Source: Candidatus Thalassarchaeaceae archaeon (GTDB lineage Archaea > Thermoplasmatota > Poseidoniia > Poseidoniales > Thalassarchaeaceae). From it: a stretch of DNA of 45,768 nucleotides. Positions 4,824-41,010 of the stretch are shown piece by piece (position 1 is the first letter of the stretch; each line of letters starts with the position of its first letter). The stretch covers positions 1 to 45,768 of the forward strand of contig JASLKH010000050.1 in the NCBI GenBank assembly GCA_030747675.1, given 5' to 3'. The position numbers were made by a program, and so were the translations under genes. The notes under the pieces were generated by a model. That model saw only the letters and a list, made by a program, of their open reading frames with translations. It searched no databases and was not told the origin of the DNA.

Positions 4824-4840
4824 AGTATCATTTTGATACT
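4824..4840 (-). terminator. Hairpin at the stop codon of the anchored subtilase
   Basis: AGTATCA (4824-4830) and TGATACT (4834-4840) form a 7-bp stem with a 3-nt loop, touching the subtilase stop codon. On the minus strand it is followed by a very A/T-rich stretch with a further copy of TATCA. It may end or weaken transcription before the surface-protein gene; the A/T-rich stretch (about 4785-4823) could also carry that gene's promoter. Confidence 0.4.
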
Positions 4841-6165
4841 TAAATATCGCCACGTATTGCGATTTCATCAGCTACAGCCCGTTCCCAAGTCAGAGCGTTG
4901 AGCGTTCCGTACCCGTATCTCGAGTGATGTGGCTGTCCTTGCAGTGCATCAGAATCACAGGAGTCTGCTAATGCGCGTTTCACCAAATCAATGTCATCTC
5001 GATCTGCATTCATCCCATTTCGGGTCAAAGCATCCCCATGCCGTTCCAATATTAAGGCAAGTGCACCCACGACAAATACAGTGGAATCACTGGTACCCGT
5101 GCTCTCAGAATACGGAACCGTTAGACTAGAATCAGATGTCGAGATTATTGCAACTCCCGGGGCGCTAACTTCGGGCTTTTGATTTGGATATTCACGTAAT
5201 TCGCCGCCTGAAATATCTGTTTCGGAGCCTTCAGCAGTTTGTTCCCAGAATATTCCACTTTCATCAATAGACCCAACAGCAATTACGCCAGCAACATTTG
5301 CTGGGACCGAAACATCAGTTACAGTAGAATCGGGGCCACCTGAATTACCCGCTGCAGCAACTACGAATACGCCATGATCAAGGGCATCGGACACGGCAGA
5401 TGCTGTTTGTGAACCCAATGGGTTATCGGGATTAGGGTCCCCACCCAGTGACAAACTGATGATGTGTGCATCCACATCCCTCCAACACCAATTAATTGCA
5501 TTTGCAATTACTGCTTCCGAACTACTTTGCCCATTTTTATCCAAAGCCGCTGCAACAAACAAATCCACATTTGGGGCGGCTCCGGTGAATTTTCCTTGTG
5601 CAACAAGAATGCCTGCCATCATCGTCCCGTGTTTGTCATCACCTCTATCTTGAATTGTGCCGTCAGCATTCGAGATGAAGTCTTTGTAACGGACCAATCG
5701 GACTTCTTCAAAATCAGGATGGTCTATGTCTATTCCTGTATCCACTATGCATACACGGATGCCTTCACCTGTGAGTCCATATTCATCTTGTAAAGTGTAA
5801 ATTTCAGAGTTTTCATATGCCCATTTGGAATCAGGTGTTAACGCATCAGCGAAGAAGCCAACTAATGATGGATAACTCAAGAACATGCCTGAAATTATAA
5901 CCAAAACCGTCAACATTCCCCACGGCTTTGGACCATCATCACGGACATTTTGAGCGGTCATTTTCCTCCATTCCTCTGCTTGCTCTGCTGTCGCACCGTA
6001 ATCTTCAGGAGGGTATCCTGGTGCATCTGCATCAATGGCAGTCAGCATCTGAGGCTCTTCCGGCTCAGGAAGATATTCCAAATGCTCGTAGGGGCCTCGG
6101 GGCATGTTAACAGGTATGAGGGATCGAATAGGGTACATCTTCCCTTCGTGTACTCCAACTCGCAT
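4840..6165 (-). CDS. Membrane-anchored subtilisin-like serine protease (S8 family)
   Basis: This 441-residue protein has an unusual layout: about 83 Pro/Glu-rich residues that should stay in the cytoplasm, one membrane helix (about 84-105, PWGMLTVLVIISGMF), then an extracellular S8 peptidase domain (about 125-430). The catalytic triad is visible: Asp142 in VDTGID, His179 in DKHGT, Ser359 in GTSDST, and the oxyanion Asn274 in AAAGNSGG. The serine motif is odd, because subtilases almost always read GTSMA at that point; the Ser is kept but Met-Ala is replaced by Asp-Ser. There is no obvious inhibitor prodomain or cleavable signal peptide, so it is a type II (N-terminally anchored) protease. The ATG at 6165 is used; an in-frame ATG at 6138 is possible. 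It lies 30 bases after aglB on the same strand and is probably co-transcribed with it. Confidence 0.92.
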   Translation of the reverse strand: MRVGVHEGKMYPIRSLIPVNMPRGPYEHLEYLPEPEEPQMLTAIDADAPGYPPEDYGATAEQAEEWRKMTAQNVRDDGPKPWGMLTVLVIISGMFLSYPSLVGFFADALTPDSKWAYENSEIYTLQDEYGLTGEGIRVCIVDTGIDIDHPDFEEVRLVRYKDFISNADGTIQDRGDDKHGTMMAGILVAQGKFTGAAPNVDLFVAAALDKNGQSSSEAVIANAINWCWRDVDAHIISLSLGGDPNPDNPLGSQTASAVSDALDHGVFVVAAAGNSGGPDSTVTDVSVPANVAGVIAVGSIDESGIFWEQTAEGSETDISGGELREYPNQKPEVSAPGVAIISTSDSSLTVPYSESTGTSDSTVFVVGALALILERHGDALTRNGMNADRDDIDLVKRALADSCDSDALQGQPHHSRYGYGTLNALTWERAVADEIAIRGDI

Positions 6166-26295: not shown

Positions 26296-27516
26296 TCAGT
26301 CGCCCCAGTAGGCCTCTCGAATTGCCTGATTCGCTTCCATACATGCAACTACATCTGCTGGCCTAGAAGGCATCGATTCAAAGCCTGCAAGGTGGTTGTA
26401 AATTGGTTCGACATTGGACATATTGACTACACCCCAACCCACTTGACTACAAGGTGCCACAGGAGATATTGGCATGGTCCCCGATGTTGGATCCCAAGTT
26501 GAAAAACTTGGATACCAAGCAGACAAATTCAATGCATCACGCAACAAACTATTCGATACTGAAAGATTAGTGGAATTGACAAGCATGCCATTGCGATTCT
26601 CACTAGCGCCAGAACCCATGTCACTCCCAAGTTCTCGAAGTTGTGTCAACACGAGGCTGAGTATTCCGGCTGTGCGAGGTGTCGCGAACGATGTTCCTGA
26701 GGTCTCATGATATCCATTTGTATCATCATGATTGGGTAAAACTTGAGTCCAATCAGCAGCAATGTCGGGATAGGAACCACTCATTGTTTCCTTTTGATCA
26801 TCATCTTCCTCGGCATATCCCGAAATTCCAATCGACCAAGGAGGTCCCGCAGTGGAGTCTTGAATTGCAGGCGATGGAGTGTTGTCTGATGCCCCTGTGT
26901 GGACCTTATTTTTCTCCACTACTGCAACTCGCGTAGCATCCTCAATTCCAGGAACTGGGACGCTTCCAATGGGGCCGAATGATGTTGTGATAACGTCCAC
27001 TAATGGCTGATTAGCTGCTGCTAAAACTGCAGCATCACTGAATCCTTCTACAAAGAAAATAATTGCATTGGGATTAGCATCAAGAACGGCACCAGTTACT
27101 GCTGTACCGTGCCCATCTGCTGGATCATCTAAAATTGGAATATCTGTATCGTCATCTGGAGTAGTACCAATTATTCGAGTCCCTGGGAAGTATACGATAT
27201 CACTCGATGTAATTACATCCCAGCAAGACGAGAGGTCAGCCTCGTAGCGTTCTTGCCAAGTCCCATTCTGAGTTAAGTTACACCACATTGTCACTCCTAA
27301 ACCTTCTAGAAGCCAATCAGGTAGAGTTTCATTCAAAGTGAATCGGGCATGATACACATTGATTCCTGTATCAATAGGTGCCACTACACTGTACGCACCA
27401 AATTCTGGTTCGGCTTCGATCTCTTCTACTCCTTTTTCTTCATTGCCAAAGCACCCAGACAATGTTGAACCTAGCACCAATATGGACAAAATTAGAGGAA
27501 TTCCCACCTTGCGCAT
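26296..27516 (-). CDS. Subtilisin-like serine protease lipoprotein (S8 family)
   Basis: The 406-residue protein starts at the ATG at 27516 (MRKVGIPLILSILVLG) behind a GGAGGGTGA site; its lipobox LSGC puts the lipidated Cys at residue 22. The S8 triad is present: Asp49 in APIDTGIN, His136 in DGHGTAVTG and Ser276 in SGTSFATPRTAG. The oxyanion motif, normally AAGN, is not recognisable; the equivalent region reads HTGASDNTP, with the Asn displaced, so activity or specificity may be altered. No inhibitor prodomain is visible. Four Cys outside the lipobox could form disulfides. It follows the membrane protein at 27546 by 29 bases on the same strand and precedes the propeller lipoprotein by about 88 bases. 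Confidence 0.9.
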   Translation of the reverse strand: MRKVGIPLILSILVLGSTLSGCFGNEEKGVEEIEAEPEFGAYSVVAPIDTGINVYHARFTLNETLPDWLLEGLGVTMWCNLTQNGTWQERYEADLSSCWDVITSSDIVYFPGTRIIGTTPDDDTDIPILDDPADGHGTAVTGAVLDANPNAIIFFVEGFSDAAVLAAANQPLVDVITTSFGPIGSVPVPGIEDATRVAVVEKNKVHTGASDNTPSPAIQDSTAGPPWSIGISGYAEEDDDQKETMSGSYPDIAADWTQVLPNHDDTNGYHETSGTSFATPRTAGILSLVLTQLRELGSDMGSGASENRNGMLVNSTNLSVSNSLLRDALNLSAWYPSFSTWDPTSGTMPISPVAPCSQVGWGVVNMSNVEPIYNHLAGFESMPSRPADVVACMEANQAIREAYWGD

Positions 27517-27545
27517 GTTCACCCTCCACTTCGGCGGAAACTGCG

Positions 27546-28383: not shown

Positions 28384-30354
28384 TTAATCCCCTATTTCTG
28401 ATTCAAAAGGAGATTCAACAAAATCAACTCCTCCACGGAGTTTTTGTAACTGCATGTACAGTACTGCTGCGGCTCCCAATGAGAGAAAGAGGAGGAACGA
28501 AAGTCCACCGACAATCAAGCCCGTACTCAAGAATCCGGAATCCTTCGAATCTGTAGGAGCCTTCTCACTACCCATGATATGCAAATGAGTAACTATGTTG
28601 GCGCTGGAGTTACTTCCAACGAGCGCACGAACCATGAGGGTTTGGTTACCTTCAACCGTATTGCCTGGCAAATACTTGAGACGGTCAACAAACATATCAT
28701 GCTCAATTTCAAATTCTTCCGAACCTGGAACAAAACTATCCAGATCCATCCACTCATCACGCATGTCCCATGTCCGCCACTGGATTTTTTCTGCAGTACC
28801 TTCAATCACAAACGTGATTGATTCACCTTGGCCAACGTGTACCTTGTTGTCGCCCATTGCTGATGTGGAAAGGTTGACTGTGACCATATCAGTAAACCCG
28901 TAGACTTGATTGGCGGCTTCCATAACAGCCGGATGTGCTCGAACCTCGCCATGACCATACACATTATTCTGTCTTGGTGAAAGGGTAAGATCCTCCCCAC
29001 ATGGCTCATTCGCAAACTTGTGGTGGCACTGTCTGTACTCTGCGGTTTCTTGCATTATATTGCGGACATCAAAAGGTGAAAGCTCTGGGTTCGCTTGGTA
29101 CATCAAAGCCGCGACACCTGCCGCCCCGGGTGTAGCCATGCTGGTACCGGACATCCCTGTATATCCAGTTCCCGAATTGGCCTCAACAGACATGACGTCT
29201 GATCCAACAAAAGCAATGTTTGGTTTAACCCGAATAACTGTAAGGCCATCATCCCCCAATACAGGTCCATTGCTTGAATAGGGAGCGATTCCGGGATCTT
29301 CGCCCTTGTCAAGAGCACCCACTGTGATGACATCTTCTGCACTACCTGGTGTCCCTATCGTAGATGGACCAGCACTGTTACCTGCAGCAATGAATAGTGC
29401 AATACCAGAACGGACCATCTCGTTGGCCATTCGTGCAACACTCTCTTCTTCAGCACTTGTCATCTCGATGGCACCTGGACCACCTAGACTCATACTTGCC
29501 GCCCGGATGTTGAAATCGTGACGCTTGTCTACAGTCCACTCCATGCCCATCATAACACCTGCAAACGATCCAGAGCCGCCTGAATCGAGTACCTTCACGC
29601 CGACCAGCTGGGCTTGTGGAGCCATCCCTGTATGCTCGTAAGTTGGCGCACCTGTGCCGGCTGTTGTGCCTGCACAATGTGAGCCATGTCCCTGGTCATC
29701 ATAAGGGAAGATTTCAGTGCCATTTGTGAGTGTAGGGTTGTTAACGACGTCATAGAATGCGATTATTTTCGGATCATCTGTGCTGTTGTCATCATCCAAG
29801 TCATCCAGACCTACATGCAATCCATCAATACCGGTATCGATAATTGCAACAACGCTACCTGCGCCATCATAACCTGTTGCTTCGTAAATCTCCCATACAC
29901 CATGCGTGTCCTTAACATCGGAGTTCATGATTTGCAGAACACTGTCCAATTCAACCATAACGACACCAGGAAGCCGTGACATCGGAACAATGTCCTCAAC
30001 GGCGACTGAGCCTGCGATGCTGTCAATGAGGTGGAATGTATGTAGATGGATGAAATCTAGTTCATTCTCCAAAAGTTTGACATCTTCTTCAGTTGGAAGA
30101 TGATCCAAGTTGACAATGATGTCGATATGACCGTCGTCATCGACCCAATCAAAGTCGGTATTATTGAGAGCAACCCATATGTCATCGTCGATTCCATCCT
30201 TGTCCTTGTCCATCAGCGTATCTTCCCACCAAGACATCTCATCCAGAGGGGGATAGGAAGTCGGTTGTGTTGCAGCTACAGCTACCAACGCTGGGAATAC
30301 GAATAAACCGATGGCGACGAATGTAAGAATGGCTCGATAGCGGTTTTCAGACAT
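28384..30354 (-). CDS. Subtilisin-like serine protease with inhibitor prodomain and C-terminal membrane anchor (S8 family)
   Basis: The 656-residue protein has a signal peptide (about 1-28), a calcium-type loop DKDKDGIDDD at about 49-58, an I9-like inhibitory prodomain (about 75-145, IDIIVNLDHLP...VVMVELD) and an S8 domain (about 150-480). The triad is complete: Asp173 in IIDTGIDG, His223 in QGHGSHCAGT, Ser405 in MSGTSMATPGAAG, with the oxyanion Asn326 in FIAAGNSAGP. A beta domain (about 500-600) follows, then a helix (LSTGLIVGGLSFLLFLSLGA, about 610-635) and an acidic tail ending FESEIGD. This is the most canonical of the three proteases and is probably active outside the cell while tethered. 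It leads the operon with the membrane protein (1-base gap) and the protease and propeller lipoproteins. Confidence 0.95.
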   Translation of the reverse strand: MSENRYRAILTFVAIGLFVFPALVAVAATQPTSYPPLDEMSWWEDTLMDKDKDGIDDDIWVALNNTDFDWVDDDGHIDIIVNLDHLPTEEDVKLLENELDFIHLHTFHLIDSIAGSVAVEDIVPMSRLPGVVMVELDSVLQIMNSDVKDTHGVWEIYEATGYDGAGSVVAIIDTGIDGLHVGLDDLDDDNSTDDPKIIAFYDVVNNPTLTNGTEIFPYDDQGHGSHCAGTTAGTGAPTYEHTGMAPQAQLVGVKVLDSGGSGSFAGVMMGMEWTVDKRHDFNIRAASMSLGGPGAIEMTSAEEESVARMANEMVRSGIALFIAAGNSAGPSTIGTPGSAEDVITVGALDKGEDPGIAPYSSNGPVLGDDGLTVIRVKPNIAFVGSDVMSVEANSGTGYTGMSGTSMATPGAAGVAALMYQANPELSPFDVRNIMQETAEYRQCHHKFANEPCGEDLTLSPRQNNVYGHGEVRAHPAVMEAANQVYGFTDMVTVNLSTSAMGDNKVHVGQGESITFVIEGTAEKIQWRTWDMRDEWMDLDSFVPGSEEFEIEHDMFVDRLKYLPGNTVEGNQTLMVRALVGSNSSANIVTHLHIMGSEKAPTDSKDSGFLSTGLIVGGLSFLLFLSLGAAAVLYMQLQKLRGGVDFVESPFESEIGD

Positions 30355-30458: not shown

Positions 30459-32060
30459 ATGTTCATGCCAGATACCTGTTGTGTGCACAATATGACCAAG
30501 ATGTGGGGTGCCTTTTTTCTATCCATTTTACTGGTATCAACACTGAATTTCTACGCAGTTGTTAGAGAACCTGATCGAGTTGAGATTAGTGACATACACG
30601 AGCATGTCCAAGAAACCGTGAAAGTTGAAGGAACTCTAATTTCATGGATTGCAGATCCATATTCGGATGGCTCTGATAGAATCGATTTGCAAATTGAAGA
30701 TGATTATGATGTGGTGAAGGTGCAATGGAGGGACACTAGTGATGATATGCCACCAATTGGGTCAACCATCATTGTTGAAGGACAAGTTCGAGAATACAAT
30801 GGTAAAATATACATCGAATCAAAAGGCATGGGGGCCGTGACTCAAAAAGAAAGTGCGGGTGTGGAAGAACTAGGGCTGACGCTGAGTGACTTCGCCAAGA
30901 ATTCCTCTGATTATGAAAATGAGATTATACGCATCACTGGATATATTTCAAGCCCAATTTCACCGTCCGATACATACCAAACATTCACGCTCACTGACAA
31001 CCCAACTTACCTAAATTCCGATCATAGATTGTATGTTTCTTTGCAAGGAAGAACTGATGCTTGGATTGAAGCAGGCTCGAAAGTTAATGTCACAGGATGG
31101 GTTCAATTCGACGAAAGAAATTATCGTTGGCTAATTGTAGTTCAAAGTTCCACTGTTGACGTCTTGAATCCTGAAGGTGCCAAGAGAATGTCATGGGATT
31201 CAACAATGGAAATATGGTCTTATGACATTGGAAAATTGGTTACTATCAGTGGAGACCTCACAGTCACTGAAGAAGGTGAATTCTGGATTTATGACCCCAG
31301 TGGTAGTAATGCCAGAGTCTGTTTGATCCCAAACATCGATTTGTTCTGGAACCCCAGCACCGGCAGAGGTGAATTTGAAGGACGTCTTGCTTGGTCAGAT
31401 GAGAAAGTTCAGATTTGTCTCGAAATGTCTGAACTACCAGATTATACATCACCTGCTCCAAGTAATGGTCCTTACGAATACACCCCCCTAATCGATATTG
31501 CTGAAAATATCGAAGAGTGGAAAAACAAAATTGTCAACATTTCTGGAGTCATAAAATATACCGTAGAACCTGGAAAGGATGGATATATTGCAGATGGAAC
31601 TTACGATGCAGGGTACAATACATCAATTCGTTTTACATGCGTATGCGCACACGATTACTGGCTTGAAGAAGGGCAAGAAGTACAGATGTTGGGAGCTGAA
31701 GTTACATGGGATACCCGTAATAGTCGAATTGAATTAGTTGCACAAACCATCGAAGTTGTTGGAGATACTCCTCCGCCCGAACCATTTGGATGGAACAAGG
31801 GTTGGGCTGATTGGAAATATCAAATTGGAGTCCACGTCACAGTTGCAGGTACGTTGAATACTACAGATGATGGAAATATGTGGATTGTTCGTTCAGGGAC
31901 TGATGAGCGCATGTGCCTCTATGATGATGGTTCTGCAAATAATTTACAATATAATTCAGAAGGGGTTAGCAATGGTGTCATCACATGGATAGGGCGGCTC
32001 ACATATGCTGATTCAATTGAAACTGCACTTTGTCTAACATTGGAACCAGGAACTGCTTGA
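30459..32060 (+). CDS. Exported protein with about five tandem OB-fold (nucleic-acid-binding type) domains
   Basis: The 533-residue protein has an N-terminal hydrophobic segment (MWGAFFLSILLVSTLNFYAVV), signal or anchor, and then only OB-like repeats. Each shows the same order: a start such as E-x-V-K-V-E-G-T-L-I, a strand reporting D/E-D, G-x-x-V-x-V-x-G and a closing strand. Approximate spans are 45-125 (VKVEGTLISW...GSTIIVEGQV), 135-240 (IIRITGYISS...KVNVTGWVQF), 250-335 (KLVTISGDLT), 350-445 (KIVNISGVIK...EVQMLGAEVT) and 455-530 (HVTVAGTLNT). This is the tRNA-anti/OB nucleic-acid-binding group, also found in secreted ExeM/NucH-type nucleases. Start uncertain: ATGs at 30459, 30465, 30492 and 30501 are in frame. 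It heads a plus-strand run with the permease and the LTD-PLD enzyme. Confidence 0.85.
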   Translation: MFMPDTCCVHNMTKMWGAFFLSILLVSTLNFYAVVREPDRVEISDIHEHVQETVKVEGTLISWIADPYSDGSDRIDLQIEDDYDVVKVQWRDTSDDMPPIGSTIIVEGQVREYNGKIYIESKGMGAVTQKESAGVEELGLTLSDFAKNSSDYENEIIRITGYISSPISPSDTYQTFTLTDNPTYLNSDHRLYVSLQGRTDAWIEAGSKVNVTGWVQFDERNYRWLIVVQSSTVDVLNPEGAKRMSWDSTMEIWSYDIGKLVTISGDLTVTEEGEFWIYDPSGSNARVCLIPNIDLFWNPSTGRGEFEGRLAWSDEKVQICLEMSELPDYTSPAPSNGPYEYTPLIDIAENIEEWKNKIVNISGVIKYTVEPGKDGYIADGTYDAGYNTSIRFTCVCAHDYWLEEGQEVQMLGAEVTWDTRNSRIELVAQTIEVVGDTPPPEPFGWNKGWADWKYQIGVHVTVAGTLNTTDDGNMWIVRSGTDERMCLYDDGSANNLQYNSEGVSNGVITWIGRLTYADSIETALCLTLEPGTA

Positions 32061-32088
32061 TACTGAGGTGATTTTTCTGGAAGGATTC

Positions 32089-33903
32089 ATGCTAGAATGG
32101 GCGTGGCTTATGGCCGCATTCTTCATCGGTGTGTTTCTGGGATGCATGACTGGTTTAATCCCTGGATTCCACGTCAACAATGTCGCACTAATTGCACTTT
32201 CAATGTCGCCTCTCGCTGTCTCCGCAGGTATCCCCCTGGAGGCTGTCGCAGCGATTATTGTAAGCATGGGGACCGTGCATACATTCCTGAATTATATTCC
32301 CAGTGCATTAGTTGGAGCGCCCGATGGTGACACTGCTCTAGCTTTACTACCTGGGCATCGGATGCTTATCTCGGGTCATGCGGCACAAGGTGTGGCCTAC
32401 TCTGCCAGAGGAAGTCAACTTGGATTATTGCTAAGTATTCCATTACTCATTTTTGCAAGACTGCTTTTTGGATCGAATCCCGGACTTGGATTGTATGATT
32501 TGAGTCGAGATATTCTACCCTGGTTACTACTCACCATCTCTGCATTCCTAATCATCACTGAAACAACAAGGCTAGCATGGCCACTTTGGATGCAGAAAGT
32601 AACAAGTTGGGCACATTATCCTCTGAAAAGACCCATTGAATTCACCATCCCAATTGCCAATTGGAAAATATATCGGAGATGGGAAGCAATTGATTTCAGA
32701 TTAGGTGATAATTCCCGTATAGCAGGAATGATTGCTGCAACTGCATTCTTCCTTCTCGCTGGATTCTATGGGTGGGCAGTATTCATTCTACCTGGTCGTT
32801 CACCCGTGGGTATGCCATCAGCAACATTGCTTATGCCAGCCCTTGCAGGTCTATTCGGTATTGCCAATTTAATTGATATTTATGTGACAACAGCAGAAAT
32901 GCCACCTCAAGAACAAAATTGGGAATTACCGCCTGTAAAGCCTCTGATTGTACCCTGCTTCCTCTCCTCTTGTTGCGCTGCTGTTATGGCGATTTTGCCC
33001 GGCATGACTGCTGCTCAAGCAACGGTGGTTGTTATGAGTGCTCGAAATTTCTGGGGTAGATTAACAGACCCCGATTACATTCCCGCAGATTTCGAATACG
33101 GACCTGGTGGTGTGAACGACCCTGCAGCCCAAGCACGAATCCAGGCTTATCGGGCAGAAACTGCCCGCCTTCATGGATTAGGAGGAGATACATTAGTCGC
33201 TAGTGCAGCACCGATGATTGTCGCCGAATCAGAAGGTTGGGATGCGGTTGTCGGTGAAGATGTTGAAGTCATTGAAGCACCTTTAGGGGATGTCCAACCA
33301 ATGGATACAGATGCAAAAGAATTGGAAGAAAAAGAGTTGGAAGATCAAGACATGCTCAAAAAAGCAAGAGAAGTGAAGACCACGTCTCCTGACTTGGACC
33401 TTGATGCTCAAACACGTGAGCAAGACCTCGAAGTGATTGCTGTTCTTTCCGCAACAAATACAGCTGTGACAGTAATGGTACTGACCTTCCTATACCTAGT
33501 ACTACGACCTCGTTCGGGAGCCGCCCTCGCTCTGAATATGATGTACCCCATTGATCAATGGACTATGATTGAACCACCGTCTGATTACATTCGCTTAATG
33601 GCGATTACAATTGGATCTGGGTTATTCGCGGTTCCAGTCATGATCAAAGTAGGAAAAGGGATGCTCAAATTGCATGAATTAATCCCACTTCGCACCCTTG
33701 TTTTGAGCGTGATTGGATTCGTGACTGTTCTAGTTTGGCTCTCAACGGGATGGATAGGGATAGGAGTTCTAATTGTGGGGACTACAATGGGATTAATGCC
33801 GCCTCGAATTGGGATACGGCGAAGCCATGGAATGGGTATTATTCTCGTCCCGATTATGATCTATACATTTGCTCAAAAGTATGACAGTTTCGGATTTATC
33901 TGA
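32089..33903 (+). CDS. TctA-like (DUF112-type) membrane permease
   Basis: The 604-residue protein begins at the ATG at 32089 behind GGAAGGATTC; a GTG seven codons earlier is the only other start. It has about ten to twelve helices with two related hairpin motifs: GCMTGLIPGFHVNN near residue 18 and AVMAILPGMTAAQA near residue 305, the paired L-P-G loops of the TctA/PF01970 membrane subunit. Between them a region SALVGAPDGDTALALLPGH resembles the TctA substrate-site segment. A 90-residue charged, possibly coiled-coil cytoplasmic insert (about 360-455, KELEEKELEDQDMLKKA) is unusual. No TctB or TctC gene accompanies it, as is common in archaea, so substrate and energy coupling are unknown. It sits 28 bases after the OB-fold gene and before the LTD-PLD gene. 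Confidence 0.85.
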   Translation: MLEWAWLMAAFFIGVFLGCMTGLIPGFHVNNVALIALSMSPLAVSAGIPLEAVAAIIVSMGTVHTFLNYIPSALVGAPDGDTALALLPGHRMLISGHAAQGVAYSARGSQLGLLLSIPLLIFARLLFGSNPGLGLYDLSRDILPWLLLTISAFLIITETTRLAWPLWMQKVTSWAHYPLKRPIEFTIPIANWKIYRRWEAIDFRLGDNSRIAGMIAATAFFLLAGFYGWAVFILPGRSPVGMPSATLLMPALAGLFGIANLIDIYVTTAEMPPQEQNWELPPVKPLIVPCFLSSCCAAVMAILPGMTAAQATVVVMSARNFWGRLTDPDYIPADFEYGPGGVNDPAAQARIQAYRAETARLHGLGGDTLVASAAPMIVAESEGWDAVVGEDVEVIEAPLGDVQPMDTDAKELEEKELEDQDMLKKAREVKTTSPDLDLDAQTREQDLEVIAVLSATNTAVTVMVLTFLYLVLRPRSGAALALNMMYPIDQWTMIEPPSDYIRLMAITIGSGLFAVPVMIKVGKGMLKLHELIPLRTLVLSVIGFVTVLVWLSTGWIGIGVLIVGTTMGLMPPRIGIRRSHGMGIILVPIMIYTFAQKYDSFGFI

Positions 33904-33929
33904 GCAACCTAATGAGGGTAGCGACTAAG

Positions 33930-33971
33930 GAGGAGTGGTCCTCACGCATGAGCGCAGGGCTATGCCCTGCG
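33930..33971 (+). promoter_or_regulatory. Two hairpins before the LTD-PLD gene
   Basis: GAGGA/TCCTC (33930-33943, 4-nt loop) contains an AAGGAGGAG ribosome site that could serve the in-frame ATG at 33948. CGCAGGGC/GCCCTGCG (33953-33971, 8 bp, 3-nt TAT loop) ends at the GGTGG site used by the ATG at 33981. Either a terminator for the permease gene or a translational control element. Confidence 0.45.
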
Positions 33972-33980
33972 GTGGATGCA

Positions 33981-36900
33981 ATGCGAAAGAATGCACTATT
34001 TTTTGCTACAATGATGATTTTGATGACACTCTCGCCACTGGTGCAAGCCAGTCAAGGGCGGTCTTCTGCCTGCACTGTTGATGTTTGCATCAACGAATTG
34101 ATGCCTAATCCAGCTGGGTCAGAGTCAGGGAGCTATCCAGCTGGTGAATGGGTTGAACTTTACAACAGTGGAACTTCTGATGTCAACCTACAAGGATGGG
34201 CCCTGACTGATCTAGCAGGGTATACTCACCCAATTGATGCAAACACTTGGGTTGATTTTGTTAATTTGGCCACGCCGTATGTTATTCCAGCAGGCGATTA
34301 TGCTATAATTGCTGAAAATAACCAAGGCACTCTCAAATTGAACAACGCAGGCGAAACATTGGATTTAATCGACAATAATGGTGCGACTGTTCAAACTGTA
34401 ACTACTGGGCAAGCAAGTAGCGACATCAGTAAGGTACCTGGGGCTTTGACTACAGATGATTTTACTGATTCTGGAGCCAATACACCGGGCGCTACGAACA
34501 GTGGTGGTGGGACTGGGCCAACTTTCGTTCAAAGCGATATCAGAATCGCCGAGGTGATGCCTGACCCATATTGGTCCAATGATAACGGAACATGGCCTGG
34601 TGGTGAATGGGTTGAAATAGCCAACACGGGGCAAATTGCTGTAGACCTCGCAGGGTGGACTGTGGAAGATGCTGCAGGGAATTCCATGCAAATGAACATC
34701 ACCCACCTTGTGGGTTCTGGAACAATCATTCAGCCTGGAGAACATCGTGTTGTTGCTGTAAATGGAACTCGGACTTATGGGATGTTGAACAATGGTGCAG
34801 GTACTGAATTGGTCAAACTGAAAATGCCTGATGGGATGGTCACACACCAAGTGGAGTATTCAGGGCCAACGAAACCTGGGCATTCCTATGTTAATTCAAC
34901 CAGCATAATTGGTGATTGGGGCAGAAATGCTATCCTCTTGGAAACAGCGAAGTGGCCTACACCTGGACAACTGAATTCACCCCTCGACACTTTGCCAGGA
35001 ATTGGTTTCCAAATCAATGAAATTTTAACGAATGCAACAGGAATATCTACCGGTACGTGGGTAGAATTCTACTACCCTGATACAGAAAATGCACCGACCA
35101 TTGACACATCGAGTTATTCGCTTATGACTGCCACTGGACGTATGAGTCAACCTTTGCCGGCAAGTATCCAACCAGGTGAATTCGTTGTATTCGGCCCAGT
35201 GGATTTGATCAACATTTACGATTCATTATCTCTTGTTGATGGTAATGGTGATGTTCGACAAACAGTGAGTTGGGATTCGCCGCAAAATGCTAATGTCAGT
35301 ATTGTCCCATCCAACCCACTAATGGTGGACTCTCCATGGGATGCATCAGATTACAACACACCTGGTGCATTGAATCCAGGTCAGGGAAATAATACTGGGG
35401 GTAATAACACTGGAGGCAACAATACAGGTGGAAATCACACAATCAGTATGGATATTCAAATTTCAGAAATTATGCCAAATCCTCTGGGGTCAGATTCACA
35501 AGCCGAACCGAATGGAGAATGGGTTGAATTGTATAATGCGGGTAATGAATCAATTGACCTGACTGGATGGAAGTTGCGTTCAGGAGCAGGATACACATTA
35601 CCAATGTTGAGTTTAGACGTTGGCGAATATCACGTGGCGTACTTAGGAACTCATTCAATCAGTTTACCAAACAATGGAGGTACACTCGAACTTTCCGATT
35701 ATGACGACAATTTAGTTCAAACAGTTACATGGGAATATTCAGCATTCGGCATGAGTATGGTTGCTGGAGGTGACCCACTTGGGCCAGACCCTTGGGTGAT
35801 GGCACCATGGAGCACACCCGGTTCTACAAACGCATTGTTTGAACACCCATATTCAGGGCCGACTGAAATTTTAATGAGTGAAGTTAGTGCTCAATGTAGT
35901 GCACCAGAAAATGGACTCACAGGTGAATGGATCGAATTATTAAACGCTGGTGCATACCCTGTGGATCTATCTCGTTGGTCTATTCGAGATAAAAGCGGAA
36001 ATGAAGCAGCTGTCGCACCTGACAGGATATGGGGTCGAACAGATAGTTCAACAACTCTTGAACCTGGAATGTATGCCGTATTGTTATTTGAAGAAAATAT
36101 CTTGACAAATATGAACGAATCAATTGAACTCCATAACCCAAATCGTGTTGTAATACAGTCACTCTCGTGGGAAGAAAGTACGGATTGCTTGACACTTGAA
36201 TCCCGAAACGGGAACGAGCAAACACGTGATACGCTTTGGCCTACCCCTGGTGAGGTAAATCCAATTATTGACATCTACGATGGCAGTCAAACACTGAAAT
36301 TCACGCGGTTCATGCCAACGGAAATTGATAACAGAGCTAATGATTGGTTTGAGATTACCAACACAGGTACAACATTGGTTGATCTGAATGGGTGGAGAGT
36401 TTCTAGGGACCGAGCACCATCCTCAGCATTCAATTCAACATTCAGTGTTACGCATGTACTATACCCTGGAGAAAGCGTTGTTATTTCAGAAAATCCTGCA
36501 AATCTAGCAAGCGATAGTGGTCCAGCATCCATTGATGGAATGGTTGCATTCAGTGGGAACCCCCCGCACTTAGTTAATTCAGGTGGTGCATTGCAATTAG
36601 CAGCACCTGACGGAACAGTTGTTGACACATTTGTGTATGGAAGTGGCAATGCAGAAGTTGTGGGTTGGACTGGTGGTTCGCTAGAATTACCTAACACAGA
36701 TTACGCTGGATTGATTCTTATGCGAGGTGACGGATGTGGGACACTACCAGATACAAACTCATCCGCAGATTGGGAATATCGTTGGCTTCGATTAGGTTCA
36801 AGTCTATTCTGTGATGAAGGTATATTCTCGACTACAGGTTCACTCACACCAGTAATTTCGCCACAAGGGTCACTTGGCCAAATGGTCAATTGGATTGGAG

Positions 36901-38747
36901 GTGCAACTGAATCTATGCACATACACGTCTACCAATTTGATTCTCCTGAACTCTTTGTAGCAATTCAAGAGGCTGTAAATCGTAATGTTGACTGCACGAT
37001 ACTTCTCGAGGGAGGAATTCTTGGAGATGCTGATGATGGTGCAAGTCAGCGTGGTTGGGCTGATGAACTGAGCAACATAGGTTGCAATGTACTGTGGATG
37101 GTTGAACCGGATGGAAACGATGCACCGATGGCTCCATACCGATACATTCATTCAAAAGTCGGTGTAATTGATAACTCAAGTGTGTGGATTGGAAGTGGTA
37201 ATTGGAAACGCTCAACATTTCCCTTAGATGGAGATGCCGCGAATCGTGACACTGGAATCATCATCGAAAGTGATGATGTGGCCGAAGTAGTACTCTCACG
37301 CATGCTTTGGGATGAAGATTTGAGTCACCGGCACATCATTTCTCAAGATGATGCACCTTTATCCATGGGGAGGCCAATGGGATGGAGTGCCCCCTCAGCA
37401 TCCAGCGAATTTACAACCCCTGTTGAACCCATGCCTACTTTCGAAGATTCATTCACAGGACGTGTGCTAACTTGTCCTGATGATTGCATCGAAGGAATTG
37501 TTTGGTTAATTGACCAAGCAGATGACACATTGGAAATATCCCAACAATATCTGTACATGGATTGGACTTGGGGGTATGGAGAGAACCCAATTATAGACGC
37601 TATTGAAAGAGCTGCTAGAGATCGAGATGTACAAGTCAGATTATTGCTCAATGGGTTTGCGTTTGATGGGGTTTCAATCAGTCCGAAGATTAGGGAAACT
37701 GTGGATTACTTCAACCACGTGCTGAACATGACAGAGAATTTAGATGTCGAAGCAAGGTTGATGTCAACATCAGAAAACATTACCAAATTACATGATAAAG
37801 GTGTAATTGTTGATGGGAGCATTGTCCTATACAGCAGTATCAATTGGGGGAGTAATAGTGCCTTGCGCAACCGAGAGATGGGAGTCGCAATTGAACACAC
37901 AGGTCTAGCACTCCATCGCTTAGCAATCTTCAATGAAGATTGGGAGCGCATGGATTCAAGCATGGATTCTGATGGAGATGGGATGCCTGATATTTGGGAA
38001 GCCGAGAACGGATTAAACAGAACACGAGCACTTATTCCAGGTACAATAACAAGTGAATTTAGTGTGGATCGTGAGAACGACGGGTTGTCCAATCTAGATG
38101 AATACCGCTACGGTGGTAATCCAAATTTGAACGATACTGATGGCGATTGTATCGGAGATGGTGATGAAGTGAGACTCGCCACCCTCACCTACGGAGTAGA
38201 TCCTGCATTGGCCGTTCAAACTGCTGATGCTGACTTGGATGGAGAAGATGATTACCTTACATGGGGCTGCACCATCGAATATACAGATGATGACGATGCA
38301 ACTACTCCTTTAGATGAAGATGACGATGAACCAGGTATTTTCCGTGAAGATGCAATGGATAGTGGGGCTGCAAAGGTGTTCCTCGGAATGATTATCATCG
38401 CTGCAATTTCCTTGCTAGGAGCTGTAGCCATGATGGTTATTCGGAAACAACGTGAAACCGCAGGGAATTTCCTACTTGACGATGCTGAAATCTCAGAGGA
38501 AGCATGGGGTGATGATTCAATCGAGTCGACACCCGCTGGTTCGGTGATTCTGGAAGGTACAAGCCTAGGGGAAAACGCAGGCAGTGAGGCTCGTGAAGTC
38601 TCTGCAGGTCGTGACGATGGGGTCTTTGGCGCCCCACAACTGGACGGGTATGATTTCCCCAACTGGTCACCACAAGAAGTCCAAGCCTCTCTTGACCAAG
38701 GCTGGACTGTCGAACAGTTGAGAGAAAAGTACGATTCCGAGCAATAA
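33981..38747 (+). CDS. Giant surface enzyme: about six lamin-tail (LTD) domains, two-HKD phospholipase-D-type domain, calcium repeats, membrane anchor
   Basis: The 1588-residue protein has a signal peptide (MRKNALFFATMMILMTLS). Six lamin-tail-type domains fill about 20-900; each has the I-N-E-(L/I)-M-P-N-P start, G-E-W-V-E-L-Y-N and L-x-G-W, as in DVCINELMPNP and DIQISEIMPNP. A phospholipase-D fold (about 950-1320) carries both HKD motifs: HSKVGVID near residue 1056 followed by GSGNW, and HDKGVIVD near 1271 followed by SSINW. The enzyme class cuts phosphodiester bonds: nuclease or phospholipase. Thrombospondin-type Ca loops (DSDGDGMPD) lie at about 1327-1420, a helix at about 1466-1490, and a cytoplasmic tail with FPNWSPQEVQASLDQGW and WTVEQLREKYDSEQ. 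A start at 33948 (with a strong ribosome site) is possible. LTD plus nuclease is the ExeM-like theme, which favours a nuclease. Confidence 0.93.
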   Translation: MRKNALFFATMMILMTLSPLVQASQGRSSACTVDVCINELMPNPAGSESGSYPAGEWVELYNSGTSDVNLQGWALTDLAGYTHPIDANTWVDFVNLATPYVIPAGDYAIIAENNQGTLKLNNAGETLDLIDNNGATVQTVTTGQASSDISKVPGALTTDDFTDSGANTPGATNSGGGTGPTFVQSDIRIAEVMPDPYWSNDNGTWPGGEWVEIANTGQIAVDLAGWTVEDAAGNSMQMNITHLVGSGTIIQPGEHRVVAVNGTRTYGMLNNGAGTELVKLKMPDGMVTHQVEYSGPTKPGHSYVNSTSIIGDWGRNAILLETAKWPTPGQLNSPLDTLPGIGFQINEILTNATGISTGTWVEFYYPDTENAPTIDTSSYSLMTATGRMSQPLPASIQPGEFVVFGPVDLINIYDSLSLVDGNGDVRQTVSWDSPQNANVSIVPSNPLMVDSPWDASDYNTPGALNPGQGNNTGGNNTGGNNTGGNHTISMDIQISEIMPNPLGSDSQAEPNGEWVELYNAGNESIDLTGWKLRSGAGYTLPMLSLDVGEYHVAYLGTHSISLPNNGGTLELSDYDDNLVQTVTWEYSAFGMSMVAGGDPLGPDPWVMAPWSTPGSTNALFEHPYSGPTEILMSEVSAQCSAPENGLTGEWIELLNAGAYPVDLSRWSIRDKSGNEAAVAPDRIWGRTDSSTTLEPGMYAVLLFEENILTNMNESIELHNPNRVVIQSLSWEESTDCLTLESRNGNEQTRDTLWPTPGEVNPIIDIYDGSQTLKFTRFMPTEIDNRANDWFEITNTGTTLVDLNGWRVSRDRAPSSAFNSTFSVTHVLYPGESVVISENPANLASDSGPASIDGMVAFSGNPPHLVNSGGALQLAAPDGTVVDTFVYGSGNAEVVGWTGGSLELPNTDYAGLILMRGDGCGTLPDTNSSADWEYRWLRLGSSLFCDEGIFSTTGSLTPVISPQGSLGQMVNWIGGATESMHIHVYQFDSPELFVAIQEAVNRNVDCTILLEGGILGDADDGASQRGWADELSNIGCNVLWMVEPDGNDAPMAPYRYIHSKVGVIDNSSVWIGSGNWKRSTFPLDGDAANRDTGIIIESDDVAEVVLSRMLWDEDLSHRHIISQDDAPLSMGRPMGWSAPSASSEFTTPVEPMPTFEDSFTGRVLTCPDDCIEGIVWLIDQADDTLEISQQYLYMDWTWGYGENPIIDAIERAARDRDVQVRLLLNGFAFDGVSISPKIRETVDYFNHVLNMTENLDVEARLMSTSENITKLHDKGVIVDGSIVLYSSINWGSNSALRNREMGVAIEHTGLALHRLAIFNEDWERMDSSMDSDGDGMPDIWEAENGLNRTRALIPGTITSEFSVDRENDGLSNLDEYRYGGNPNLNDTDGDCIGDGDEVRLATLTYGVDPALAVQTADADLDGEDDYLTWGCTIEYTDDDDATTPLDEDDDEPGIFREDAMDSGAAKVFLGMIIIAAISLLGAVAMMVIRKQRETAGNFLLDDAEISEEAWGDDSIESTPAGSVILEGTSLGENAGSEAREVSAGRDDGVFGAPQLDGYDFPNWSPQEVQASLDQGWTVEQLREKYDSEQ
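35385..35441 (+). repeat. G-G-N-N-T linker repeat: four tandem N-glycosylation sequons
   Basis: Inside the LTD-PLD gene, a 15-bp unit encoding GGNNT occurs three times with a final GGNHT, between LTD domains 3 and 4. Every unit contains an N-X-T sequon (N-N-T or N-H-T). The units differ at third positions, so the peptide, rather than only the DNA, is being kept. Confidence 0.82.
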
Positions 38748-38762
38748 GCACACGAAGGATTC

Positions 38763-39746
38763 ATGGGCACTCGGGTTTCGCTCTGCATTATGGCAAGAGA
38801 TTCCATTCCAACACTTGACCTGCGAGAATATACAAATGGCGACCAAGGAAGTCGTGCAGCATTCATCCAAAAAATGGGTGAGGCTCTAGAAGACATCGGC
38901 TTCTTTGCATTAACCGGGCACGGCATTCCACTTGACGATATTTCTCAAGCATACGCGGTTTCTGAGGAATTTTTTGATAAAGACGATTCAGTCAAAATGC
39001 GCTGGAATCAGTCAGGTAATCAAAGAGGATACGTACCTTTTGGTGTAGAACACGCGAAAGACAACCCCGCCCCTGATCTCAAAGAATTCTGGCAGACGGG
39101 AAGAACACTTTCCGATGGTCATGCAATGAAAGAAGTATATGCCACAAACATATGGCCGACAGAGGATGCCCCTGAATTTGAACCCGCAATTGATGGGCTC
39201 TACATCCAGATGGAAGAATTGAGTAGAACTCTATTGGAAGTTTGTTCCGAGTATCTAGGCAAAGGTCCGAATTGGCTACCAGACATGGCAATTGATGGCA
39301 ATACAATTCTCCGAATTTTGCATTACCCTGCACTAGGAGCAGATGTGCCAGATGGTGCTGTTCGCAGTGCCCAACACGAAGACATCAACTTCATCACACT
39401 TCTAGTTGGAGCGAGTGCTGATGGGTTAGAAGTTATGGACCATGATGGTGAATGGATTAAAGTTCAAGGAAATCATGAACACATCATTATCGATTCAGGA
39501 GATATGCTGCAAAATTTAACGAATGGGCTTTTCAAGGCAGTCACGCATCGAGTAGTCAATCCACCTGATTCAACCAGTGACCGATATTCTATGCCAATGT
39601 TCACTCATCCTCGTGATGATGTTGATTTGACGCCTCGTCCCGAATTCATTGCCCGAACTGGAGGAGAAGCACTCTATCCAAGCATTAGCGCTGGTGAATT
39701 CCTTCGCCAACGACTAATTGAAATCGGGCTGATTAAGGATGATTGA
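38763..39746 (+). CDS. 2-oxoglutarate/Fe(II)-dependent dioxygenase, isopenicillin-N-synthase-like
   Basis: The 327-residue protein has the IPNS-like order: N-terminal IPTLDLREY and LEDIGFFALTGHGIP (about 43-57), then the double-stranded beta-helix. Iron ligands are His205 and Asp207 in SAQHEDINFITLL and His262 in AVTHRVV; Arg274 in RYSMPMF is the 2OG carboxylate partner (R-x-S). No metal ligand is missing. Start at 38763 has GAAGGATTC before it, the same ribosome motif as the permease gene; MARDSIP at 38790 is an alternative. The last eight bases overlap the start of the nucleoside phosphorylase gene (ATGATTGA), so the two are translationally coupled. Substrate not determinable from sequence; the coupling makes a nucleobase or nucleoside a candidate, because thymine-7-hydroxylase belongs to this superfamily. 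Confidence 0.93.
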   Translation: MGTRVSLCIMARDSIPTLDLREYTNGDQGSRAAFIQKMGEALEDIGFFALTGHGIPLDDISQAYAVSEEFFDKDDSVKMRWNQSGNQRGYVPFGVEHAKDNPAPDLKEFWQTGRTLSDGHAMKEVYATNIWPTEDAPEFEPAIDGLYIQMEELSRTLLEVCSEYLGKGPNWLPDMAIDGNTILRILHYPALGADVPDGAVRSAQHEDINFITLLVGASADGLEVMDHDGEWIKVQGNHEHIIIDSGDMLQNLTNGLFKAVTHRVVNPPDSTSDRYSMPMFTHPRDDVDLTPRPEFIARTGGEALYPSISAGEFLRQRLIEIGLIKDD

Positions 39747-41010
39747 GATTCAACAATTCGTCGACGGAGTTGTCGATGGCTCACTTTCTGATAAGGAAGT
39801 AGAATCATGGATGAAAGAAGTTTATGAAAATGGTCTTTCCAAGGAAAAAACTGTCATTCTAACTAATGCAATGATTCATTCAGGGTCCGTGTTACAGTGG
39901 CCAAATGAATGGGCTCATCTTGTGGTTGACAAACATAGCACAGGAGGGATTGGAGACAAGGTATCGTTACCTCTTTCTCCTGCTCTTGCTGCTTGCGGGC
40001 TGAAATGTCCTATGATTGCTGGGCGGGGACTTGCCCACACAGGAGGGACTCTGGATAAACTCGAATCATTACCTGGATATGATGTTTCAATTTCCCCAGA
40101 AAAAGCACTGGAAATGGTCGCCAATATTGGATGTATGATTGGAGGGCAAACAAGTGAAATCGCTCCCGCAGATAAACGAATGTACGCCATTCGTGATGTG
40201 ACTGGATTAATTGCTTCAGTCCCACTCATTACGGGCTCAATTGTTTCCAAAAAAGCTGCTGAAGGACTAAGCGCACTTGTGATGGACATCAAAGTTGGCC
40301 GAGCGACATTCATGAAAAATGAAGATGATGCGAGAAAGTTAGCTCAGAGTATTGTATCTACTGGGGAAGGACTTGGGATTAAAACTTCTGTGACATTAAC
40401 TGAAATGGACACTCCGCTTGGTTTTGCTGCAGGAAATGCCCTTGAAGTCTTGGAAAGTGTTGAAACATTGCGTGGCTATGGGCCTGCAGATTTGGAAGAG
40501 TTGGTTTGTGTACAAGGTGGAATCTTGCTTCATGCAACTGGTTTAGTTGAATCCATCGAAGAAGGAGCGAATCGTATTCATGACTCACTTCTCGATGGGA
40601 CTGCACTTGAGAAATTCGAACAAATGTGCATTGCACAAGGAGTCACAGCATCTGTTTTCCAAACCGAGCGATCGTTGTTAGATGCCATTGGTTTGCTTGA
40701 TCCCACCCTCAATTCAACTGAATTCAAAACAACACAACATGGATATGTTGCTGATATTGATGCAATGGCACTTGGACAAGTTGTCCTCGAATTAGGTGGA
40801 GGTAGGCTCAATCTAGGTGACGATATTGATCACTGTGTTGGATTTGTGCTTGATGCCCATATAGGGTCCATGCTTGAAAATGGCGACCCATGGATTACAA
40901 TTTACCATAGAGAATCTCTTTCTAATTCACATTCTCAACTCGTTTCAAATGCGATAACCTTGGATGAAAGTCTAGTCGAATCACCTCAAAGGATTATCGA
41001 TATCCTCTGA
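39739..41010 (+). CDS. deoA: Pyrimidine-nucleoside (thymidine) phosphorylase
   Basis: The 423-residue protein carries the family signature AGRGLAHTGGTLDKLES (about 94-110), the phosphate loop DKHSTGGIGDKVSL (about 64-77), and the base- and phosphate-binding residues Arg152, Ser167 and Lys171, matching Arg171, Ser186 and Lys190 of the E. coli enzyme. It cleaves thymidine, uridine or deoxyuridine with phosphate to base and (deoxy)ribose-1-phosphate. Length and N-terminus fit the bacterial DeoA/Pdp type; the N-terminal extension of archaeal AMP phosphorylases is absent, which points to nucleosides rather than NMPs and possibly to transfer from bacteria. It starts within the last eight bases of the dioxygenase gene. 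A stem-loop follows it, and the next gene has its own promoter, so it closes this transcript. Confidence 0.95.
   Translation: MIEIQQFVDGVVDGSLSDKEVESWMKEVYENGLSKEKTVILTNAMIHSGSVLQWPNEWAHLVVDKHSTGGIGDKVSLPLSPALAACGLKCPMIAGRGLAHTGGTLDKLESLPGYDVSISPEKALEMVANIGCMIGGQTSEIAPADKRMYAIRDVTGLIASVPLITGSIVSKKAAEGLSALVMDIKVGRATFMKNEDDARKLAQSIVSTGEGLGIKTSVTLTEMDTPLGFAAGNALEVLESVETLRGYGPADLEELVCVQGGILLHATGLVESIEEGANRIHDSLLDGTALEKFEQMCIAQGVTASVFQTERSLLDAIGLLDPTLNSTEFKTTQHGYVADIDAMALGQVVLELGGGRLNLGDDIDHCVGFVLDAHIGSMLENGDPWITIYHRESLSNSHSQLVSNAITLDESLVESPQRIIDIL

Follow-up and report, generated by a model that had tools for sequence, protein, structure and literature searches.

A tethered lamin-tail phospholipase-D-superfamily protein of Poseidoniales archaea and its probable role in a nucleic-acid scavenging module

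Extracellular nucleases that carry lamin-tail domains (LTDs) and are associated with salvage loci are already known, and the archaeal gene block described here is probably a variant of them. In DNA-degrading bacteria, such loci hold an LTD nuclease together with a transporter and a nucleosidase (PMC8289736), and in ExeM the LTD is needed for full activity in vitro, yet is not essential (PMC6085458). Tandem LTD repeats have also been reported (PMC6085458), and the statement in a preliminary description of this DNA that LTDs usually occur singly is too narrow. The present block resembles those of ExeM and of the Izemoplasmatales LTD-nucleases (PMC6085458, PMC8289736) in having a putative secreted LTD nuclease with OB-type nucleic-acid-binding parts, a transporter, and nucleoside-splitting enzymes nearby. 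The known enzymes have other nuclease folds, and ExeM has one LTD, whereas the protein studied here (LTD-PLD) combines a phospholipase D (PLD) fold with six LTDs, and is accompanied by a separate anchored OB protein and a TctA-type permease in an archaeal host. The layout of the LTD-nuclease loci, in which the nuclease gene lies beside a transporter and a nucleoside-splitting gene, is found here for a predicted nuclease.

Among solved structures, Foldseek placed PLD3 and PLD4, the animal lysosomal 5′-3′ exonucleases, first for the catalytic region, narrowly ahead of lipid-acting PLDs in TM-score. PLD3 and PLD4 likewise have two HKD-type motifs per chain in the same fold, and their catalytic domain is anchored to the membrane and faces away from the cytoplasm. 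PLD3 has been proposed to act on nucleic acid through a phospho-histidine mechanism that employs the same residues (PMC10783504). PLD3 differs in its type II anchor and in the HKE form of its second motif (PMC10783504); both traits are absent from LTD-PLD, which has a full second HKD (D1278), an N-terminal signal peptide, and a C-terminal helix as type I anchor. PLD3 and PLD4 are also without an LTD array, and their identity to the archaeal protein is about 15%. The bacterial PLD-family nucleases Nuc and NucT, which are among the best profile relatives, share the motif spacing and the downstream N-x-E, but have one HKD per chain and form dimers, whereas in LTD-PLD both halves are fused and joined to accessory domains.

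LTD-PLD is encoded by a Poseidoniales (Marine Group II) archaeon. In the window (the whole 45,768-nucleotide stretch that was analysed), a single open reading frame runs from 33912 to 38747 on the forward strand, and translation from the ATG at 33981 gives one protein of 1588 aa with a signal peptide, the length given in the preliminary description. This ATG is most likely the translation start, judging from the sequence, because the preceding 60-odd bases are conserved as a leader among same-genus genomes and contain a hairpin (Table 1). The leader is present in one copy per genome, with 87% mean column identity among seven same-genus sequences. A perfect hairpin, CGCAGGGC-TAT-GCCCTGCG, lies beside the start codon at 33953-33971, and takes the form CGCAGGGC-TAY-GCCCTGCG in the same-genus sequences, in which its pairs are invariant and show no compensatory changes. 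A search of the leader against Rfam gave no match, and its assignment to a known RNA family was therefore rejected; it may be regarded as a candidate regulatory RNA.

Table 1. Features of the LTD-PLD gene and its neighbours (window coordinates)
Feature	Residues (aa)	Position	Strand	Basis
N-terminally anchored OB-fold-like protein		30459..32060	+	weak PF01336/CcmE; synteny, co-occurrence
TctA-family permease		32068..33903	+	PF01970 140 bits; synteny, co-occurrence
Conserved leader between TctA gene and LTD-PLD gene		33912..33980	+	column identity, same-genus sequences
Signal peptide	1-24	33981..34052	+	basic start and hydrophobic segment; KD peak 1.75, aa 5
Lamin-tail domain 1	29-174	34065..34502	+	PF00932 75 bits
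Lamin-tail domain 2	180-336	34518..34988	+	PF00932 62 bits
Lamin-tail domain 3, diverged	344-468	35010..35384	+	sister-domain profile 33-41 bits; beta pattern in AF2 model
Lamin-tail domain 4	487-619	35439..35837	+	PF00932 56 bits
Lamin-tail domain 5	628-763	35862..36269	+	PF00932 43 bits
Lamin-tail domain 6	770-950	36288..36830	+	PF00932 50 bits
Two-HKD phospholipase-D-superfamily catalytic region	958-1345	36852..38015	+	PLDc_2 twice; AF2; Foldseek
HKD motif 1, H1057-x-K1059-x4-D1064-x6-GSGN1074	1057-1074	37149..37202	+	H, K, D, N invariant in both alignments
HKD motif 2, H1271-x-K1273-x4-D1278-x6-SSIN1288, plus E1299	1271-1299	37791..37877	+	invariant in both alignments
Thrombospondin-type-3-like calcium loops	1326-1430	37956..38270	+	TSP3_bac, sub-cut-off; invariant Asp residues
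C-terminal transmembrane helix	~1463-1486	38367..38438	+	KD 2.63; same position in orthologues
Cytoplasmic tail end, W-x12-GW-x3-QL motif		38619..38744	+	W16, G28, W29, Q33, L34 invariant in 16 orthologues
2OG-Fe(II) oxygenase, in block for part of order		38763..39746	+	PF03171, PF14226; synteny
Thymidine / pyrimidine-nucleoside phosphorylase, bacterial type		39739..41010	+	NF004490, TIGR02644

Pfam recognized five LTDs (PF00932) above the gathering score and two PLDc_2 halves. The two complete HKD motifs noted earlier (HSK...D and HDK...D) are borne out by residues whose H, K, D, and N are invariant across 20-23 aligned sequences, down to 29% identity; the second motif is followed by a glutamate (E1299), and most relatives have D or E at the matching place of the first. 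An AlphaFold2 model of the PLD region, built from 20 sequences, reached a pLDDT of 90.1 and a pTM of 0.92, and Foldseek returned 146 matches at E <= 0.001 with a best E of 6e-23, which shows the bilobal fold of the superfamily and bears out the PLD fold originally proposed. Ranks 1-19 among PDB entries were all held by PLD3 and PLD4, the lysosomal 5′ exonucleases, with TM-scores of 0.64-0.68 at ~15% identity. The lipid-acting PLDs (Streptomyces, human PLD1/2, Moritella, and 7e0m) came next, at 0.58-0.66, with E-values of 1e-18 to 1e-20. In the profile search, endonuclease Nuc ranked first (8e-19) and the bacterial phospholipase D 7e0m second (3e-16), and Zucchini/MitoPLD, NucT, and the virion nicking-joining enzyme also scored high. 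Among NCBIfam models, DrmC and NucT outscored cardiolipin synthase. These fold and profile rankings, drawn from a model and from sequence, favour a nuclease, and we infer that the PLD domain acts as one, its substrate included.

The same rankings bear on the possibility that LTD-PLD acts on lipids at the cell surface, as a phospholipase D or another lipid phosphodiesterase. It would then free head groups from the phospholipids of neighbouring cells, vesicles, or algal debris, and the phosphorylase gene beside it would be incidental. The TM-scores of the lipid-acting enzymes are nearly equal to those of PLD3/4, and 7e0m is second in the profile search; nucleases rank first in both searches. CD36 is a lipid and scavenger receptor family in animals, and a CD36-like gene sits between the TctA gene and LTD-PLD in several genera of one of the two families of the order (here f1). 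CD36-like genes occur with and without LTD-PLD, however, and it is TctA, not LTD-PLD, that they accompany; moreover, a lipid enzyme offers no ready explanation for the tight co-occurrence with thymidine phosphorylase described below. On balance, a lipid-acting enzyme is unlikely. The preliminary description had made its proposal depend on the presence of the PLD fold and on close homologues that do not all act on lipids. The fold is present and nucleases head the rankings, which leaves the proposal unrefuted; the lipid-acting PLDs follow close behind, and the nuclease assignment is to that extent a deduction about substrate. A search of 32 Poseidoniales genomes detected CD36-like proteins in 28, and the 14 control genomes gave none; most of the genes, which include L040:11847-14633, L043:4898-7648, and G000:C74:23082-23441, passed the Pfam cut-off. 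The CD36-like neighbour was set aside as evidence of lipid use, being genus-limited and independent of LTD-PLD.

The preliminary count of six LTDs also stands, with the third as a diverged member. This domain (aa 344-468) was undetected by Pfam, but scored 33-41 bits with a profile built from the other five, against at most 2.9 bits for shuffled copies, and its counterpart in many orthologues reached 81-98 bits with the local five-LTD profile. The AlphaFold2 model of the array was of low overall confidence (pLDDT 71, pTM 0.36), and was used for the domain fold, with the domain arrangement left aside; this low-confidence model matched lamin Ig-fold structures with a Foldseek probability of 1.00. 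The calcium loops of the preliminary description are present as weak TSP3 matches (20.2 bits, against a Pfam cut-off of 25), in which the Asp residues are largely invariant.

The proposed membrane helix, outward-facing tether, and conserved tail recur widely: a C-terminal membrane helix and a tail of ~80-140 aa were found in every orthologue whose C-terminus lies on the contig, the tail being ~100 aa in the window protein. With the signal peptide, this arrangement would place LTD-PLD outside the cell. The W-x12-GW-x3-QL end is shared with a surface protein of 1970 aa that the genome encodes elsewhere (L153:1552-7464), and a similar one is found on a 2200-aa protein in L165; by sequence, this end is a candidate for a shared cytoplasmic tail module. 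Three subtilisin-like proteins are encoded in the window, at 4840-6165, 26296-27522, and 28384-30354, among several large surface proteins; the latter two were assigned by Pfam S8, and that at 4840-6165 was judged by eye.

Protein length ranged from 849 to 1713 aa among those frames of the retrieved loci that are complete. More than half of the window protein is LTD array, and the array differs in size between genera; both would suit an adhesin-like role at the cell surface, with the array as the working part and the PLD domain as a minor or structural one. In several genera, however, the N-terminal array is reduced, yet the protein retains the PLD domain with its two HKD motifs, the helix, and the tail, which argues that the enzyme, and not the array, is the constant part; an adhesin is accordingly very improbable.

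Function is best indicated by the conserved gene neighbourhood, which includes a thymidine phosphorylase and a permease and is absent from the preliminary description. The block has the order OB-fold protein, TctA-family permease, LTD-PLD, (2OG oxygenase), bacterial-type thymidine phosphorylase, and recurs, with variations, across both families of the order. The phosphorylase scored 434 bits with NF004490 (cut-off 269) and 425 with TIGR02644 (cut-off 409); an archaeal AMP phosphorylase was ruled out (203 bits, against a cut-off of 535). In several f1 genera the oxygenase is missing, and LTD-PLD is joined directly to the phosphorylase. In the second family (f2), a Bax-inhibitor-1-like gene was seen between LTD-PLD and the oxygenase (L048:10948-11793).

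Adjacency alone is little proof, because part of the gene order around the block is conserved in general. Within f1, the phosphorylase was found in 20/20 genomes with LTD-PLD and in 1/19 without (Fisher 3e-10), and TctA in 20/20 and 2/19 (Fisher 3e-9), tests that ignore relatedness among genomes that are related and mostly incomplete; the OB protein was likewise present in 20/20 and 2/19. These counts omit a 20th f1 genome apparently lacking LTD-PLD, in which the site reads N, and the genomes of genus g15 and G073 in which LTD-PLD is apparently absent. In the five g15/G073 genomes read, the N stretch lies between the flanking genes and is of matching length in most. The expected LTD-PLD site beside other block genes reads N in L144, L145, L146, L147, and L149. 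Presence and absence were both found within each of the genera g2, g7, and g9, the block genes being gained or lost as a unit; the pattern is therefore unlikely to reflect one ancestral event. Shared presence also extends beyond physical linkage. In G034 and G046, OB-TctA is on another contig, with LTD-PLD and the phosphorylase adjacent, and in G028, LTD-PLD, the phosphorylase, and TctA are on separate contigs, yet all are present. One f2 genome (G016) has LTD-PLD without the phosphorylase.

Taken with the fold, this neighbourhood suggests that LTD-PLD is a nuclease tethered to the cell and part of a nucleic-acid scavenging module in Poseidoniales, a reading to which we assign a probability of roughly 0.6. 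The signal peptide would export the protein, and the C-terminal membrane helix would hold it at the cell. The LTD array would extend outward and may bind either nucleic acid or a surface structure bearing it. The two-HKD domain, whose motifs and fold are those of the PLD superfamily, would use the phospho-histidine mechanism of that superfamily to hydrolyse the phosphodiester bonds in DNA or RNA. Products would then be imported, possibly via the TctA-family permease, for which the anchored OB-fold protein may act as binder, and the adjacent enzyme, a thymidine phosphorylase by family, would split pyrimidine deoxynucleosides inside the cell. The distribution of two further salvage enzymes counts against a full catabolic route: DeoC is missing in 7/7 f2 genomes with the block and in f1 is found with or without it, showing no tracking, and cytidine deaminase is absent in nearly all genomes. 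Both were discarded as co-varying partners, a role unsupported by their distribution.

A surface nuclease could instead serve defence or DNA handling: it might destroy the DNA of incoming viruses or plasmids, trim DNA that is being taken up, or rid the cell envelope of extracellular DNA. DNA-uptake systems are known to include OB-fold and nuclease proteins, and LTD-PLD weakly resembles DISARM DrmC and a candidate defence protein of SNase+LTD composition. Such a role is nevertheless improbable, less likely than the lipid enzyme considered above: the four neighbours tested included no defence family, LTD-PLD keeps a conserved position in most Poseidoniales genomes, unlike defence islands, and the thymidine phosphorylase partner points to salvage. 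DISARM membership was rejected (DrmC 50.9 bits, against a cut-off of 133; no defence family in the four neighbours). Among the viral contigs searched, matches were to the calcium loops only.

The architecture is not unique to the window genome: it is found across the order, and its PLD domain across the phylum. Full-protein matches of some kind were obtained in 187/194 genomes of the order, many of the weak ones probably reflecting LTDs alone, and clear LTD-PLD orthologues are present in both f1 and f2. A related two-HKD domain was detected at E <= 1e-10 in 206/293 genomes of the phylum, and also in Methanocorpusculum. In its own genome (78% complete), LTD-PLD is the sole PLDc_2 protein detected. 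No paper on the LTD-PLD family was found in the literature collection searched.

The relatives in Methanocorpusculum (L069, L070) and other Thermoplasmatota (L068, L154, L155, L157) share the two-HKD domain and a C-terminal hydrophobic helix and, in most, a signal peptide and an LTD or LTD-like N-terminal part. Unlike the Poseidoniales proteins, they are mostly shorter, with fewer LTDs and a short basic tail; no adjoining thymidine phosphorylase was seen, and a rhomboid gene lies beside some. Beyond Poseidoniales, L167 has a TctA gene close to its PLD protein, and genes for small membrane proteins of the OB-fold type (weak Pfam matches) are found close to the PLD protein of Methanocorpusculum. 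The rhomboid protease gene directly adjoins the PLD protein in other Thermoplasmatota (L155:5233-6165, L157:7858-8700), where it could serve ectodomain shedding. A PD-(D/E)XK / Cas4-like nuclease gene lies directly 3′ of LTD-PLD (L068:10610-11608) in bin24, a euryarchaeal genome that does not belong to the order.

A broader and distinctly more tentative proposal is that the module is an archaeal counterpart of lysosomal PLD3/PLD4, set on a surface LTD array and joined to a novel kind of uptake for nucleosides or oligonucleotides (a TctA-family permease with an anchored OB-fold binder), with the cytoplasmic tail as a link to the cell interior. Poseidoniales are very abundant, uncultured archaea of the surface ocean, and their acquisition of phosphorus and nitrogen is poorly known. 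If LTD-PLD is a nuclease, it would give these archaea a concrete route for the use of dissolved DNA or RNA in seawater. Nucleic-acid products would become a candidate substrate class for an archaeal TctA-family permease, and an archaeal two-HKD family would be linked to animal PLD3/PLD4.
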